Shown here in pieces: positions 1-46,974 of a stretch of DNA of 50,374 bases. The DNA lies in NCBI GenBank assembly GCA_021647905.1, contig JAKITW010000011.1, forward strand, positions 1 through 50,374, read 5' to 3'. The translations under genes and the position numbers were made by a program. Every line of letters starts with the position of its first letter. The stretch's first letter is position 1. A model generated the notes under the pieces. That model was given only the letters and a program-made list of their open reading frames with translations, searched no databases and had not been told where the DNA came from. Source of the stretch: Desulfobacterales bacterium. Lineage in GTDB: Bacteria > Desulfobacterota > Desulfobulbia > Desulfobulbales > BM004.

Positions 1-126
1 TACGGTAAACTCATGCCCGTAAGCGTTTACCAGTGGCTTAGATTCGTTCATTCGGGACTGCGAAGCATACTGGTGCTATTCGAGCAGGCCAGAATGGGCG
101 AAGATGAGGTGCTGGTGAACGCTTAC
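1..126 (+). mobile_element. Family A MITE-like element, copy A1 (left end outside window)
   Basis: This is nearly identical to copies at 9228-9379 and 30417-30568 (both on the opposite strand). It carries the internal GTAAGCGTTTACCAG site (19-33) and ends with CTGGTGAACGCTTAC (112-126), the right terminal inverted repeat. Full copies are 152 bp, so about 26 bp should lie before base 1. It is non-coding: the open frame across it is only the repeat read through. It is followed directly by a fragment of a family C element, so A1 appears to have inserted into that element. Confidence 0.85.
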
Positions 127-154
127 CCGTCGAGCGGGTTGTTGCGAGACCGAC
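127..154 (-). mobile_element. Family C element fragment, copy C5
   Basis: Read on the minus strand this is the first 28 bp of the 101-bp family C element (starting GTCGGTCTCGCAAC and ending CTCGACGG). It is broken off exactly where A1 begins. Bases 155-163 (AATGTTTAC) are the reverse complement of GTAAACATT, the first 9 bp of family D. In the intact nest at 27352-27734, C sits after exactly those 9 bp of D. The rest of C5 should lie to the left of A1, outside this window. Confidence 0.75.
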
Positions 155-230
155 AATGTTTACCAACAACCAGATCCAGGGCTGCCGTTACTCCCTGTAA
201 GTCCGGCGGAACGGACGCGGGCGAGCAATG

Positions 231-3993: not shown

Positions 3994-5037
3994 ATGAACA
4001 AACGGTTACGTAACGGTCTGCTGCTCCTGATCCTGACCCCCTTTCTCCAGCAATGCATTGCCACCACCCAGGACGTGCAGAACACCAACCTCCGGGTACG
4101 CTACGTGGACCAGGAGGTGAAACAGATCCGGGAGGGAATTCTCAGGGAGGTTCAGGCCCGGCAGGCCAAGGTTGACAACCGGCTCGACTCCCTTCATACC
4201 GATCTGCTCGGCCTGAAAGGCCAGATGGAGGAAAATGCCTACAACAACCGGCGGCTCCACGAGGAAAACAAGGAGATGCTGGCCGGCCTGCGCGACCAGG
4301 CGGCCCGCCAGGGCAGGAGCAGGGACCAGCGGCTGGCCCGGCTGGACAAGAAACTCAGCCGGCTGGACAAGCTGCTCGCCCGGCAGGATAGCCGGCTTGC
4401 CGGGCAGGATGATCGCCTGACCCGGATCGAGACCATGATCAGCCGGAACCAGGGCGAAATAGAGTCAATAAAAAAGGCCAGGGCCAGAGAAGCGGTGGAG
4501 CGGGCCATGGAAGCGGCCCGGGCCGTGGAAGAGGCCAGGAAGGCCAGGGAACTGGCCCGGGTTACGAAAACGAAAAAAGGCGTTCCAGAACTCATTCCGG
4601 ACAAGCACAAGAAAAAGGTGAGCCCCGGCATTGGTGAAAAACCACCGGTAAAGAGTATCCAGGACCCTGGCCAGGGCCTGTATGACAAGGCCCTGGACCT
4701 GTTCCGGCAAAAAAAATACCAGGCCGCCCATGACGGGTTTGCCGCCTATCTGGATAAAAATCCGAACGGTAAACTGAAGGTCAACGCCCGGTTCTGGATG
4801 GGGGACAGCCTGTTTAACCAGCAGGAATACGAACTGGCCATCCTGGAGTACCAGAAGGTGATCAGTGACTTCCCCTACCATGCCAAGGCCCCGGCCGCCC
4901 TGTTGAAACAGGGGCTGGCCTTTGAGAAACTGGGCGACCGCGAAACAGCCAGGATCGTGCTGCGGAAGCTGGTGGCCGAGTATCCCAAGAGCGACCAGGC
5001 CGGGGTTGCCAGAAAACGGCTGCGGAAACTGAAATAA
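3994..5037 (+). CDS. cpoB: CpoB/YbgF-like coiled-coil TPR protein
   Basis: Periplasmic or lipid-anchored partner of the Tol system; in E. coli it coordinates peptidoglycan synthesis with outer-membrane constriction. The 347-residue product has a hydrophobic N-terminus ending in QQC at about residue 20 (a poor lipobox, so lipidation is uncertain). A long coiled coil (about 30-165) follows, with heptads such as RLDKLLARQDSRLAGQDDR. The C-terminus is a YbgF-type TPR block (about 225-347) with YDKALDLFRQKKYQAAHDGF. ATG 3994 was chosen for GAGGA just upstream. Longer than E. coli CpoB because of the coiled coil. Confidence 0.85.
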   Translation: MNKRLRNGLLLLILTPFLQQCIATTQDVQNTNLRVRYVDQEVKQIREGILREVQARQAKVDNRLDSLHTDLLGLKGQMEENAYNNRRLHEENKEMLAGLRDQAARQGRSRDQRLARLDKKLSRLDKLLARQDSRLAGQDDRLTRIETMISRNQGEIESIKKARAREAVERAMEAARAVEEARKARELARVTKTKKGVPELIPDKHKKKVSPGIGEKPPVKSIQDPGQGLYDKALDLFRQKKYQAAHDGFAAYLDKNPNGKLKVNARFWMGDSLFNQQEYELAILEYQKVISDFPYHAKAPAALLKQGLAFEKLGDRETARIVLRKLVAEYPKSDQAGVARKRLRKLK

Positions 5038-6434: not shown

Positions 6435-6535
6435 GTCGGTCTCGCAACAACCCGCTCGACGGACGTGATTCGTCTTGTAACTTGTTGATTTTATTGGGTG
6501 GCATTTGAAGCCTTTCGGGTTGTTACGAGTTCATC
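6435..6535 (+). mobile_element. Family C MITE-like element, copy C1 (101 bp)
   Basis: Left end GTCGGTCTCGCAACAACCCG, right end CGGGTTGTTACGAGTTCATC; the two are imperfect inverted repeats (15 of 20 match). It is flanked by direct repeats AAAGATT (6428-6434 and 6536-6542). The inner part has a short hairpin (GACG...CGTC). There is no credible protein. It sits 13 bp before the tlyA start codon, and a GTG inside it is in frame with tlyA, so gene callers may wrongly add 17 residues encoded by the element. Confidence 0.88.
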
Positions 6536-9227: not shown

Positions 9228-9379
9228 GTAAGCGTTCACCAGCACCTCATCTTCGCCCATTCTGGCCTGCTCGAATAGCACCAGTATGCTTCGCAGTCCC
9301 GAATGAACGAATCTAAGCCACTGGTGAACGCTTACGGGCATGAGTTTACCGTAAATCCGTACCCCCGGTGAACGGTTAC
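9228..9379 (-). mobile_element. Family A MITE-like element, copy A2 (152 bp) with 8-bp target duplication
   Basis: On the plus strand the ends are GTAAGCGTTCACCAG (9228-9242) and GGTGAACGGTTAC (9367-9379), inverted repeats that match at 12 of 13 positions. A second inward copy of the end motif, CTGGTGAACGCTTAC, lies at 9321-9335. The element is flanked by perfect 8-bp direct repeats CCTTATTG (9220-9227 and 9380-9387), the footprint of transposition. It has no coding capacity. A 5'-GTAA end with 8-bp duplication is typical of IS66-family elements. Confidence 0.92.
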
Positions 9380-18910: not shown

Positions 18911-19186
18911 GTAAGGTTTCGGTAAACCCCGTACGTTTGAGGTTGGACCGGGAAAGGGGTTTTCTTATAGCGAACGGTGTAGCAGACCCTGAGCCGCGGC
19001 CGTGACGGCAAAAGCGGAATTTGAAACAACTTCGGCAGGATATGCTTATGGCTTCCGAATCGCCGTTGCGGCGAAGCGAGTTGCTGCTTGATAGCCTGTT
19101 TATGAACAGCCGGCCCTTTTCAATGGAGCGGCCGTTGGTAGAAGAAGACCCCTTTCCCGACAGGAGGGGGGTTACTGAATGTTTAC
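18911..19186 (-). mobile_element. Family D MITE-like element, copy D1 (276 bp) with 8-bp target duplication
   Basis: Plus-strand ends are GTAAGGTTTCGGTAAACC and GTTACTGAATGTTTAC, imperfect inverted repeats. Flanks are perfect direct repeats AATGGTTG (18903-18910 and 19187-19194). A second inner inverted pair, CGGGAAAGGGGTCTTCTT and its near complement, lies inside both ends. The element is non-coding with many small GC-rich hairpins. The other full copy, D2, is also 276 bp once its inserted C element is removed. Confidence 0.92.
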
Positions 19187-23497: not shown

Positions 23498-23598
23498 GTC
23501 GGTCTCGCAACAACATGCGAGACGGACGTGTCTCATGTTGTAACTTGTTGATTCTGTCCAGTGGCATTTGAAGCCTTTCGGGTTGTTACGAGTTCATC
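23498..23598 (+). mobile_element. Family C MITE-like element, copy C2 (101 bp) at the kdsB start
   Basis: Ends GTCGGTCTCGCAAC and GTTACGAGTTCATC. It is flanked by ATTATT direct repeats (23492-23497 and 23599-23604). Its inner hairpin is stronger than in C1 (CAACATG...CATGTTG). It lies between divergent kdsB and rsmJ, with one end four bases from the kdsB start codon. Confidence 0.9.
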
Positions 23599-25861: not shown

Positions 25862-26224
25862 TTACCGGTACAGCCACTCCTTGATCCGGTTGTTCTCGTC
25901 CAGCAGCACCACCCGGGGCCCATAATCCTCAAGTTCCGTCTCGCTGTACAGGGCATAGGTAACAATAATGATCAGATCGCCGACCTCGCCCTTGCGGGCG
26001 GCGGCACCGTTCAGGCCGATGATCCCGGAGCCGGCCGCGCCCGGGATGGCATAGGTGTCGAACCGGGCACCGTTGTTGATATTGTAGACCTTGACCTGCT
26101 CAAAGGACTCAATGCCCACCTGGTCCAGCAAGGTCTGATCGATGCTCAGGCTGCCCTCATAGTCCAGGTCAGCCTCGGTTACCGTGGCCCGGTGGATCTT
26201 GGCCTTTAACATGGAACGTATCAT
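25862..26224 (-). CDS. panD: Aspartate 1-decarboxylase proenzyme
   Basis: 120 residues. Makes beta-alanine from aspartate for pantothenate and CoA. It self-cleaves between Gly24 and Ser25 (DYEGSLSID) to give the pyruvoyl group, and this numbering fits the start [16 protein letters not shown] at 26224. Other motifs are [31 protein letters not shown] and the C-terminal EW. A longer in-frame reading to 26284 would add 20 residues encoded by the C4 element and is rejected. AGGAG precedes the chosen ATG. Operon with panC. Confidence 0.96.
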
Positions 26225-26246
26225 TTCTCTTCTGCTCCTAAAATAT

Positions 26247-26347
26247 GATGAACTCGTAACAACCCGAAAGGCTTCAAATGCCACCCAATAAAATCAACAA
26301 GTTACAAGACGAATCACGTCCGTCGAGCGGGTTGTTGCGAGACCGAC
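26247..26347 (-). mobile_element. Family C MITE-like element, copy C4 (101 bp) between panC and panD
   Basis: Minus-strand copy nearly identical to C1. It is flanked by perfect AAATAT direct repeats (26241-26246 and 26348-26353). It lies inside the panC-panD operon and is oriented, like C1 and C2, with its right end toward the downstream gene. Confidence 0.92.
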
Positions 26348-26400
26348 AAATATAACTGGTCACAGGGCATGGAACTCCGCGGCAGCACCGGGCGCTTACC

Positions 26401-27243
26401 CTAAAACAACAACCCGTTGTCGATCAACCTGGTGCGGCCGATCCGCACGGCCATCAACAGCCGGGTCTGCGAATCCACCGCGTTTTTTTCGGTTAATTTT
26501 TTCTGGTCAACCAATTTAACGTACTCGATCTCCACCCCGTTGCCCGAACCAAGCATCCCTTTAATCTCGGCGATGAGCCGTGGCCCGTTGCGCAGCCCCT
26601 GTCGCACCAGCCGCCGGGCCGATTCCAGGGATTGATAGAGACAGAGGGCGGTCTGCCGTTCCCTGGGGTCAAGATAGGTGTTGCGCGAACTCATGGCCAG
26701 ACCATCGGTCTCGCGGACAATGGGATGACCGAGGATAATGATGTCCCAGTCCAGGTCAGCCACCATCCGCCTGATCACGGCAAGCTGCTGAAAATCCTTT
26801 TCCCCGAACACCGCCAGATGGGGCTTGACCAGGTGAAACAGTTTGGCAACCACCGTGGTCACCCCCTCAAAATGACCGGGCCGGCCAGCGCCGCACAACC
26901 CCCGGCTGAGCCGGTCCACGCTCACCCGGGTCTGAAAATCATCCGGATACATGGCCGCAACCTCCGGAGTAAAAAGCACCGCCACCCCCTGGCCCGCGGC
27001 CAGCTCCGTATCCCGGGCAATATCCCGGGGATAGCGGTCCAGGTCCTCGCCGGGCCCGAACTGAATCGGGTTGACAAACAGGCTGACCACCACCTGGTCG
27101 GCCTGGTTCGCGGCATGCCGCATCAGGGCCAGATGTCCCTGGTGGAAACAGCCCATGGTCGGCACCAGGGCGATGCGCTCGCCCCGGGCCAGGACCTGGT
27201 TGCTCCAGGCAGTCATTTCAGCGCTGGCACGGATAATCTGCAT
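26401..27243 (-). CDS. panC: Pantothenate synthetase (pantoate-beta-alanine ligase)
   Basis: 280 residues. Joins pantoate and beta-alanine with ATP. Motifs are VPTMGCFHQGHLALMR (HIGH-like nucleotidyl-transfer signature), VVSLFVNPIQFGPGEDLDRY, VFGEKDFQQL and MSSRNTYLDP (KMSKS-like). First gene of panC-panD-kdnA-like; panD follows after 176 bp that hold the C4 element. PanD supplies the beta-alanine used here. Confidence 0.96.
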   Translation of the reverse strand: MQIIRASAEMTAWSNQVLARGERIALVPTMGCFHQGHLALMRHAANQADQVVVSLFVNPIQFGPGEDLDRYPRDIARDTELAAGQGVAVLFTPEVAAMYPDDFQTRVSVDRLSRGLCGAGRPGHFEGVTTVVAKLFHLVKPHLAVFGEKDFQQLAVIRRMVADLDWDIIILGHPIVRETDGLAMSSRNTYLDPRERQTALCLYQSLESARRLVRQGLRNGPRLIAEIKGMLGSGNGVEIEYVKLVDQKKLTEKNAVDSQTRLLMAVRIGRTRLIDNGLLF

Positions 27244-27271
27244 AACAGGGGGAAAAGTGATAACTGTTTTC

Positions 27272-27351
27272 GTAACCGTTCACCAGGGGCTACAGATTTA
27301 CGGAACCCACCAGCCGGTAAGCGTTTACCAGTGCCCCGGATTCGTGCAAGC
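27272..27351 (+). mobile_element. Family A element copy B1, split by D2
   Basis: Starts GTAACCGTTCACCAG (27272-27286) and has the internal GTAAGCGTTTACCAG (27317-27331). It is interrupted after GTGCAAGC by the D2 element. The sequence resumes at 27735 with the duplicated GTGCAAGC then AGGCC, as in copy B2 (46790-46941), before similarity is lost near 27747. The right end of B1 is missing. Confidence 0.8.
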
Positions 27352-27734
27352 GTAAACATTGTCAGTCTCGCAACAACCCGCGAGACGGACGTGTGTCATG
27401 TTGTAACTTGTTGATTTTATTCGGTGGCATTTGAAGCATTTCGGGTTGTTACGGGTTCATCAACATTCAGTAACCCCCCTCCTGTCGGGAAAGGGGTCTT
27501 CTTCTACCAACGGCCGCTCCATTAAAAAGGGCCGGCTGTTCATAAACAGGCTATCAAGCAGGAACTCGCTTCGCCGCAACGGCGATTCGGAATCCATAAG
27601 CATATCATGCCGAGGTTGTTTCAAATTCCGCTTTTGCCGTCACGGCTGCGGCTCAGGGTCCGCTACACCGTTCGCTATAAGAAAACCCCTTTCCCGGTCC
27701 AACCTCAAACGTACGGGGTTTACCGAAACCTTAC
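27352..27734 (+). mobile_element. Family D element copy D2, with C3 inserted inside
   Basis: Begins GTAAACATT (27352-27360), is interrupted by C3, resumes CAGTAACC, and ends CCGAAACCTTAC at 27734. Removing C3 and its 6-bp duplication gives 276 bp, the same as D1. D2 is flanked by perfect 8-bp direct repeats GTGCAAGC (27344-27351 and 27735-27742), which lie in the B1 element. It has internal inverted pairs (27486-27503 with 27679-27697) and small GC-rich hairpins, and no protein I would accept. Confidence 0.93.
27361..27461 (+). mobile_element. Family C element copy C3 (101 bp), inside D2
   Basis: Starts GTCAGTCTCGCAAC and ends GGGTTCATC. It is flanked by perfect AACATT direct repeats (27355-27360 and 27462-27467), which are D2 sequence. 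The same C-in-D position recurs at the left window edge. Confidence 0.92.
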
Positions 27735-27760
27735 GTGCAAGCAGGCCTCTGGGATGAAAA

Positions 27761-28483
27761 CTATTTCCCCTCAGGGGTCGCGGCAATACGCTCCTTGATC
27801 CGGGCAAGCTTGCCGGTAATCAGGGAGGTCTCCTCCGGGGAGAGGGGCAACCGGGCGGTCAGGTACTGTTCGTAGCTCTTTTTTGCCGCGCCCAGGTTGC
27901 CGCGCAGTTCATTGATCCGGCCCATCCCCTTGAACCCCTGGCCCTTGAAACCTTCCATTTCACTGAGCGCCCGGTAGGCGGCCAGGGCCTGCTCAAGGTC
28001 CCCTTTTGTTTCCAGGGACTGGGCAATGCTTAACTCCACCAGCGGGTAGAGCGGATTGTCCTTGTCCAGATCCGCCAGAACGGCCTGATACCCGGCAATC
28101 GCCCGATCAAGGTTGCCGGCCTTGAAATCGATGTTAGCCAGCTCCACCCGGCTCCAGAGCGCCGAAGAGGTCCGGGGATACTGCTCAGCCACCCGGGTCA
28201 GGGCCGGAATCCGGTTTTCATCGCCGGTGAACTGAAGCGCGACCGTGAGTTCGGCAACGGCCCGCTCATCCTGCTGATCAACATAATAATCATAAACAGC
28301 CCAGGCCAGAACCGCGACCGCCAGGACGATCCCGGCGATCTGTAATTGTTTTTTATTATTACGGACAAAGGCGACCACCCCGGGCGGCAGGTTCAACTCT
28401 TCCAGCAGCCCTGGTTTTGCTTCCGGATTGATGGTCACTCCAATGATATTTTTTTTGCTGAAGGCGCTCGGCTGTTTGGTCAT
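27761..28483 (-). CDS. Membrane-anchored TPR protein (YfgM-like)
   Basis: 240 residues. A cytoplasmic N-terminus (about 1-45) is followed by one membrane helix (about 47-67, IAGIVLAVAVLAWAVYDYY). The periplasmic region has TPR-like repeats (about 80-235), for example AGNLDRAIAGYQAVLADLD and GDLEQALAAYRALSEMEG. The layout is like YfgM-type tetratricopeptide proteins that assist envelope protein handling, but the identity is not certain. ATG 28483 follows AGGAAC; the longer frame to 28672 overlaps xseA's start and is rejected. Its 3' end abuts the nested element cluster. Confidence 0.78.
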   Translation of the reverse strand: MTKQPSAFSKKNIIGVTINPEAKPGLLEELNLPPGVVAFVRNNKKQLQIAGIVLAVAVLAWAVYDYYVDQQDERAVAELTVALQFTGDENRIPALTRVAEQYPRTSSALWSRVELANIDFKAGNLDRAIAGYQAVLADLDKDNPLYPLVELSIAQSLETKGDLEQALAAYRALSEMEGFKGQGFKGMGRINELRGNLGAAKKSYEQYLTARLPLSPEETSLITGKLARIKERIAATPEGK

Positions 28484-28677
28484 TATTTTGTTCCTATCTT
28501 CTGTTACAACCTGGCTTTCCAGGTTCTTGAACCGGTATTGAACGAATTTGACAATATACCCGGCCGGAATGAAAAATGCACCTGCGTTTTGCCCCGGCCG
28601 GTCTGATCGTTTTGCCGGCCGGAGCGGGGACCGAATGTCAGTGACGGCTCCCTGCTGATATGGTATTAACATTGTCC

Positions 28678-30416: not shown

Positions 30417-30568
30417 GTAAGCGTTCACCAGCACCTCATCTTCGCCCATTCTGGCCTGCTCGAATAGCACCAGTATGCTTCGCAGTCCCGAATGAACGAA
30501 TCTAAGCCACTGGTAAACGCTTACGGGCATGAGTTTACCGTAAATCCGTACCCCCGGTGAACGGTTAC
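30417..30568 (-). mobile_element. Family A MITE-like element, copy A3 (152 bp) with 8-bp target duplication
   Basis: Almost identical to A2. Plus-strand ends GTAAGCGTTCACCAG and GGTGAACGGTTAC. It is flanked by perfect direct repeats TAAAAGAT (30409-30416 and 30569-30576). The upstream copy of the duplication carries the stop codon of the 72-residue ORF, so the ORF kept its stop. Confidence 0.93.
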
Positions 30569-46705: not shown

Positions 46706-46789
46706 CAGGAGTTTTCCCTCAGTGCTTGTTTCAATCCAGCAAAATAATGCAATATTAACAGGTTAAGGCTTATACACCCTGTAAGACCC

Positions 46790-46941
46790 GTAACCGTTCA
46801 CCAGGGGCTACAGATTTACGGAACCCAGCGGCCGGTAAGCGTTTACCAGGGCCACGGATTCGTGCAAGCAGGCCGGCGAATCCATAGTATGCCTATGTGA
46901 GCCGGCCTGATCGTGCGAAGATGGGGTGCTGAATATCTTAC
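46790..46941 (+). mobile_element. Family A element copy B2 (152 bp, diverged), inside a larger palindrome
   Basis: Starts GTAACCGTTCACCAG, has internal GTAAGCGTTTACCAG (46835-46849) and ends GAATATCTTAC. It is the same length as A2 and A3 but diverged, and no 8-bp duplication is visible. It is bracketed by inverted repeats (CAGGTTAAGGC..CCCTGTAAGA, 46759-46785, with TCTTACAGGGCTTTAACCTG, 46936-46955). The interior has a GCAGGCCGGC hairpin. It lies between convergent murJ and the phosphatidyltransferase gene. Confidence 0.75.
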
Positions 46942-46974
46942 AGGGCTTTAACCTGGTTTGGGTGCCAGTAATCT

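Follow-up and report, generated by a model that had tools for sequence, protein, structure and literature searches.

Nested miniature elements between a TPR protein gene and panC in a Desulfobacterales genome, and a MITE family whose insertion regenerates its own target

Short elements mobilised in trans are well known in bacteria. One example is MITEAba12 of Acinetobacter (113 bp), a high-copy element without a transposase, for which movement in trans by a resident IS has been proposed (PMC6382973); the text of that paper contains neither the word "nested" nor the word "tandem". IS1272 of Staphylococcus, a member of the IS1182 family, has been reported to insert without duplications, replacing stem-loops (PMC5678879), and elements of the IS1202 family next to pdif/dif sites insert in one fixed orientation to the target and make a duplication (PMC10132070). 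The DNA analysed here (the window, 50,374 nucleotides) is contig C11 of a Desulfobacterales genome, G000, assembled to 2.73 Mb in 118 contigs with a completeness of 98.4%. It harbors copies of three short non-coding elements, designated A (152 bp), C (101 bp) and D (276 bp). In contrast to MITEAba12, which has a known resident parent (PMC6382973), the parents of A, C and D were not found in their own assembly.

Three such elements are stacked in the gap between the TPR protein gene and panC (Table 1). As stated in the original prediction, D2 is flanked by perfect 8-bp repeats (GTGCAAGC) and is itself split by C3 between perfect AACATT repeats. After removal of C3 and one AACATT, the two parts of D2 add up to 9 + 267 = 276 bp, a length shared by the uninterrupted copy D1 and almost every other D copy. 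The further claim that the joined B1 sequence matches the second copy, B2, held only in part: the match extends over 85 bp with 4 mismatches, but past the D2 scar it comprises just five bases (AGGCC), after which the two sequences diverge completely. B1 is therefore a right-truncated copy of family A. None of the three families carries a transposase-type ORF (the longest stop-free frames of A, C and D are 50, 32 and 91 aa, respectively), and the two ORFs of the window that overlap the elements gave no match in Pfam. The nest of three non-autonomous elements, in which B1 holds D2 and D2 holds C3, is real, and both of its duplications are intact.

The 517-bp gap is composed of 28 bp adjoining panC, B1, D2 with C3, the second GTGCAAGC, five B1 bases, and 13 bp adjoining the TPR stop; without the nest it would measure 41 bp. 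The gene order xseA-TPR-panC-degT is conserved in relatives of the same family. The comparison with empty sites proposed in the original prediction was made on these relatives, which belong to other genera: a readable junction was obtained from 10 of 11, and in all ten the nest is absent and the gap measures 14–56 bp. Many contigs of the assembly end within a D or A copy, ~127 bp of which remains at the break, so these MITEs largely explain its fragmentation, and the nest might likewise be viewed as an assembly chimera of repeat copies. This is scarcely credible, as neither duplication shows a mismatch between its two sides, which would not be expected of chimeric joins, and the genes around the nest keep the conserved order. 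According to the ORF list, the element sites in the window fall between the main genes, and we estimate that, where intergenic elements are packed this densely, nesting as such is nothing unusual, some of it being expected without any special mechanism. A promoter scan of 27200-27800 found none, so no claim is made that the nest drives panC, and an Rfam search of 26200-27800 matched no family.

Table 1. Features of the window discussed in the text (TSD, target duplication).
Feature	Position	Strand	Evidence or remark
Second, probable triple nest, cut by contig end: 9-bp D left end, C start, A inside C	1..163	-	D::C junction 141-163; A 1-126
C copy	6435..6535	+	TSD AAAGATT
Full-length A copy	9228..9379	-	TSD CAATAAGG on own strand
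D1, uninterrupted D copy, 276 bp	18911..19186	-	8-bp TSD CAACCATT
C copy	23498..23598	+	TSD ATTATT
C copy	26247..26347	-	TSD ATATTT
panC, pantoate-beta-alanine ligase (vitamin B5 gene)	26401..27243	-	PF02569 E 2.7e-101
TPR stop / panC start gap, 517 bp, houses nest	27244..27760	.	14-56 bp in relatives
B1, left part of truncated family-A MITE, putative IS66 type, GTAACCGTTCACC end	27272..27351	+	80.5% to A over first 76 bases; 95% to B2 46789-46869
D2 left target duplication, GTGCAAGC	27344..27351	.	identical to 27735-27742; single GTGCAAGC in B2 at 46862
D2, 276-bp GTAA...TTAC MITE, putative IS66 type, interrupted by C3	27352..27734	+	276 bp after joining; 96-98% match to other D copies
C3 left target duplication, AACATT	27355..27360	.	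identical to 27462-27467
C3, 101-bp MITE, putatively IS1182-like, imperfect inverted ends CTCGYAACAACCCG	27361..27461	+	identical to C93:6807-6908
C3 right target duplication, AACATT	27462..27467	.	identical to 27355-27360
D2 right target duplication, GTGCAAGC	27735..27742	.	identical to 27344-27351
AGGCC, last B1 bases before B1 is lost	27743..27747	+	alignment with B2 stops there
TPR protein gene, upstream of panC	27761..28672	-	PF09976
Full-length A copy	30417..30568	-	TSD ATCTTTTA
B2, second B1-subfamily copy, right end also lost	46790..46931	+	alignment
D copy cut by contig end	50248..50374	+	alignment

The geometry of the nest places B1 before D2, as predicted. The remaining step of the predicted order, C3 after D2, is the simplest reading but does not follow from the geometry, because D::C composites with identical D position and orientation occur at four loci (contig C11 at 27352 and, on the reverse strand, at 141-163, as well as contigs C24 and C64). 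The composite of contig C64 carries an 8-bp TSD of its own (CGCGATCC), and a ready-made D::C, formed elsewhere, could therefore have jumped into B1 as a unit, in which case C3 would be older than the arrival of D2; the loci on contigs C22 and C2, where similar A copies lie at the same site in D, are compatible with such composite movement. However, in the three composites that can be read, C belongs to three subtypes that are 5–10 differences apart, each of them identical to free C copies elsewhere, which makes separate C insertions the better reading and the predicted order the simpler one. The D parts of the composites are also not more similar to each other than they are to D copies lacking C, a test of independence that is weak given the star-like relationship of D copies (3–15 differences). 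Movement of D::C as a unit is thus unlikely, and C3 was probably inserted last, after D2 had landed in B1. The target rule of C described below does not account for the four-fold use of one D position, since the site in D scores only 1.4 with the C target profile, compared with 5.7–17.1 for the training sites. Recurrent sites were also observed for the other elements: D occupies the same A octamer (GTGCAAGC) in the opposite orientation at C56:10541, and A occupies the same D octamer (CTCAATGG) on contigs C22 and C2. At three further loci (C55:12065-12424, C35:10824-11183 and C18:33170-33528), D adjoins C copies that are devoid of their first ~20–23 bases at a hairpin, and no duplication is present.

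The explanation we favor, with a probability of roughly 0.7, is that three MITEs inserted independently, one into another, in the 41-bp TPR-panC gap. An A element (IS66 type) would have inserted into the gap and lost its right half later; a D element, also of IS66 type but with ends of another subgroup, would then have inserted into A with an 8-bp duplication; and a C element (IS1182-like) would have inserted at the AACATT close to D's left end with a 6-bp duplication, all three being moved by transposases encoded elsewhere. We infer the type of transposase for each family from its ends, the length of its duplications and its relatives. The involvement of at least two transposase systems, as originally predicted, agrees with the two kinds of duplication, namely 8 bp with GTAA ends for A and D (putatively IS66 type) versus 6–8 bp of the A..TT form for C (putatively IS1182-like). 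Since neither an IS66 transposase nor a C-related DDE_Tnp_1 transposase was found in the assembly, mobilisation of A, C and D in trans appears probable. The nest is a genuine and clear-cut case of MITE nesting, unexceptional in kind; it shows at least two systems to have been active, and no transposase for its elements was found in the assembly. Nested MITEs that keep their scars allow transposase activity in an uncultured lineage to be dated in relative terms. The part worth following is the target-regenerating family C.

All three families are short, non-coding, multi-copy and associated with target duplications, as is typical of MITEs. At least 53 full-length C copies and at least 32 full-length A copies were read with their flanks in this genome, and 38–40 full-length D copies were sampled. 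The pattern of the D right end gave at least 121 matches in the genome, some of which, at contig ends, were perhaps counted twice, versus 0 for the reversed control. These copy numbers greatly exceed what chance would produce. D was found in none of the 37 relatives, nor was its exact pattern found in the wider collection of genome contigs. The terminal inverted repeats of A read GTAAsCGTTCACC at both ends, whereas those of C are imperfect (15/20 by eye) and those of D are short and imperfect (GTAA, then GTAAxCCCC). In the region 46780-46945, B2 lies between the arms of a 10-bp inverted repeat (CCCTGTAAGA/TCTTACAGGG), and a 57-bp micro-A that ends at the internal GTAAGCGTTTACC repeat of A and has a 7-bp duplication is found at C16:14311-14368 (L074).

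Both A and D start with GTAA, finish with TTAC and make 8-bp duplications (23 A copies and 18 D copies with GTAA ends), the combination by which IS66-derived elements are recognized. In the same order, intact IS66 elements (L188, L189 and L190) share the GTAA ends and 8-bp duplications, ACTGCAAT in the case of L188. The ends of L188 and L191 are D-like, the inner ends GTAAGCGGTCATTAAACCCC and GTAAGCGCTCAGCAAACCCC of IS66 elements of the order resemble D (compare GTAAGCGGTCATTAAACCCC with GTAAGGTTTCGGTAAACCCC of D), and the IS66 remnants L210 and L211 (GTAACTGATCACGGGG and GTAACACTTCACCGGGG) have A-like ends. Based on these similarities, A and D may represent MITEs of two IS66 subgroups, from which they differ in being non-coding. 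A search for the IS66 DDE domain (PF03050) gave 0 candidates in the 118-contig assembly, from which a contig may have been lost.

Perfect duplications of at least 5 bp flank 50 of the 53 full-length C copies. At 32 single sites the duplication is six (21 sites), seven (9) or eight (2) bp long, and the site consensus is TC/A..TT/GA (TC/A N3-5 TT/GA), with TCANNNTTGA as an empty form of the target. The duplications speak against C being a REP element moved by TnpA-REP, for which no target duplication is expected (50/53 copies carry one), and their length of 6–8 bp is not that of a Tn3-derived TIME (5 bp). We found no description of family C in the literature within reach, most subscription journals lying outside it.

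The right end of C (..TTCATC) re-creates the TC of the target, which makes successive insertions at one site possible. In this genome, all 11 abutting C pairs identified by alignment are in the same orientation. Their spacers are 5–6 bp long in the alignment, which assigns the first A of the spacer to C, and nearly always have the sequence of the flanking duplication (C2:20783 is one base off on the left). Tandem neighbours differ from each other at as many as 9 positions, and each of them is only 0–4 differences away from remote copies. The rows might have arisen by unequal recombination or slippage instead of repeated insertion, and the neighbours on contigs C2, C32 and C52, which are sometimes one base apart, would suit this. 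This origin is nevertheless quite unlikely: neighbours on contigs C18, C41 and C54 differ at 9/102 positions, members of the C18 and C54 rows show only 0–2 differences from remote copies, and another genome has an IS and a C-like MITE adjoining in this very way (see below). Thus, the tandem rows are most likely successive insertions at one site, each into the duplication of an earlier C. The orientation in use scores higher at 18 of 20 C sites with a profile trained on those same sites, and the single orientation is at least partly due to the asymmetry of the site. What is new in family C is that its insertion regenerates its own target, giving same-orientation rows of different subtypes separated by one identical short spacer; the rows show one site being used repeatedly by different donors.

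A complete genome from another family of the same order (G075) contains at least 46 C-like matches at the same kind of site, together with an IS of 1887 bp with the ends GATGGCGTCGTAAAAAGT/GATGACCTCGTAAAAAGTC. The IS encodes a 584-aa DDE transposase with PF05598 (DUF772), PF13751 (DDE_Tnp_1_6) and PF01609 (DDE_Tnp_1) domains, whose best NCBIfam match is IS1182 (157.8 bits, under the curated cut-off of 270). Its duplications include ATATTT, ACAATT, AAAATT and ATCAATT; in 7 IS copies they are 6–7 bp long, with A first and mostly TT last, as in 50 C copies. The sequence GATGNCNTCGTAAAAAGTCAAA is common to the IS and the C-like MITE of G075, and C of the present genome keeps this layout as GATGAACTCGTAACAACCCG. 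At L256 and L258, the IS abuts C-like MITEs across one shared short duplication, the row at L258 being ATATTT-IS-ATATTT-C-ATATTT. Although it comes from a different family of the order than the genome of C, this IS likely represents the best available parent type for C. A PF01609 profile search of the 118-contig assembly revealed no C-related DDE_Tnp_1 transposase; the only PF01609 gene of the genome (L240, 616 aa) was rejected as a parent, being weakly IS1380/IS481-like with no C ends nearby.

The IS match in G075 and IS1272 share the name of the transposase family, but C and the IS make 6–8-bp duplications, unlike IS1272 (PMC5678879). With IS1202-family elements, C has in common the fixed orientation and the duplication; the target of those elements adjoins a dif site (PMC10132070), whereas C targets a short A..TT motif that its own insertion restores. 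Rows in one orientation with one identical spacer could also be laid down by a site-specific, tyrosine-type recombinase whose 6–7-bp overlap mimics a duplication, and the central motif of C (TGTAACTTGTTGATTTTAT) is indeed also found beside tmRNA and tRNA genes. Such placement is very improbable, given that the spacer varies from 6 to 8 bp with a free middle sequence and that the autonomous counterpart makes the same duplications and codes for a DDE transposase. The chances are about even that an IS1182-like system rebuilds the target TC/A..TT/GA, so that MITEs and their parent IS would re-insert at one spot in one orientation with a 6–7-bp spacer and leave an ordered record of transpositions. 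Family C, whose members share a target rule and for which there is a candidate parent IS, spans several families of the order and offers a test case for how target-regenerating insertion shapes genomes.

The central motif TGTAACTTGTTGATTTTAT was also observed behind the end of a tmRNA-like gene (L121, by eye) and, in viral contigs (L148, L153 and L160), next to tRNA-like stretches, a placement that resembles integrase attachment sites. Matches to the right-end motif of C in viral contigs were discarded as an unrelated stretch, nearly all of one sequence. A C copy that matches the main C sequence exactly and is flanked by ATGGCTT lies on the reverse strand (~4205-4223) of L132, a contig binned as Verrucomicrobia, where it adjoins HsdS-like and RhuM-like ORFs (by eye); this copy reflects either horizontal transfer or a misbinned contig.
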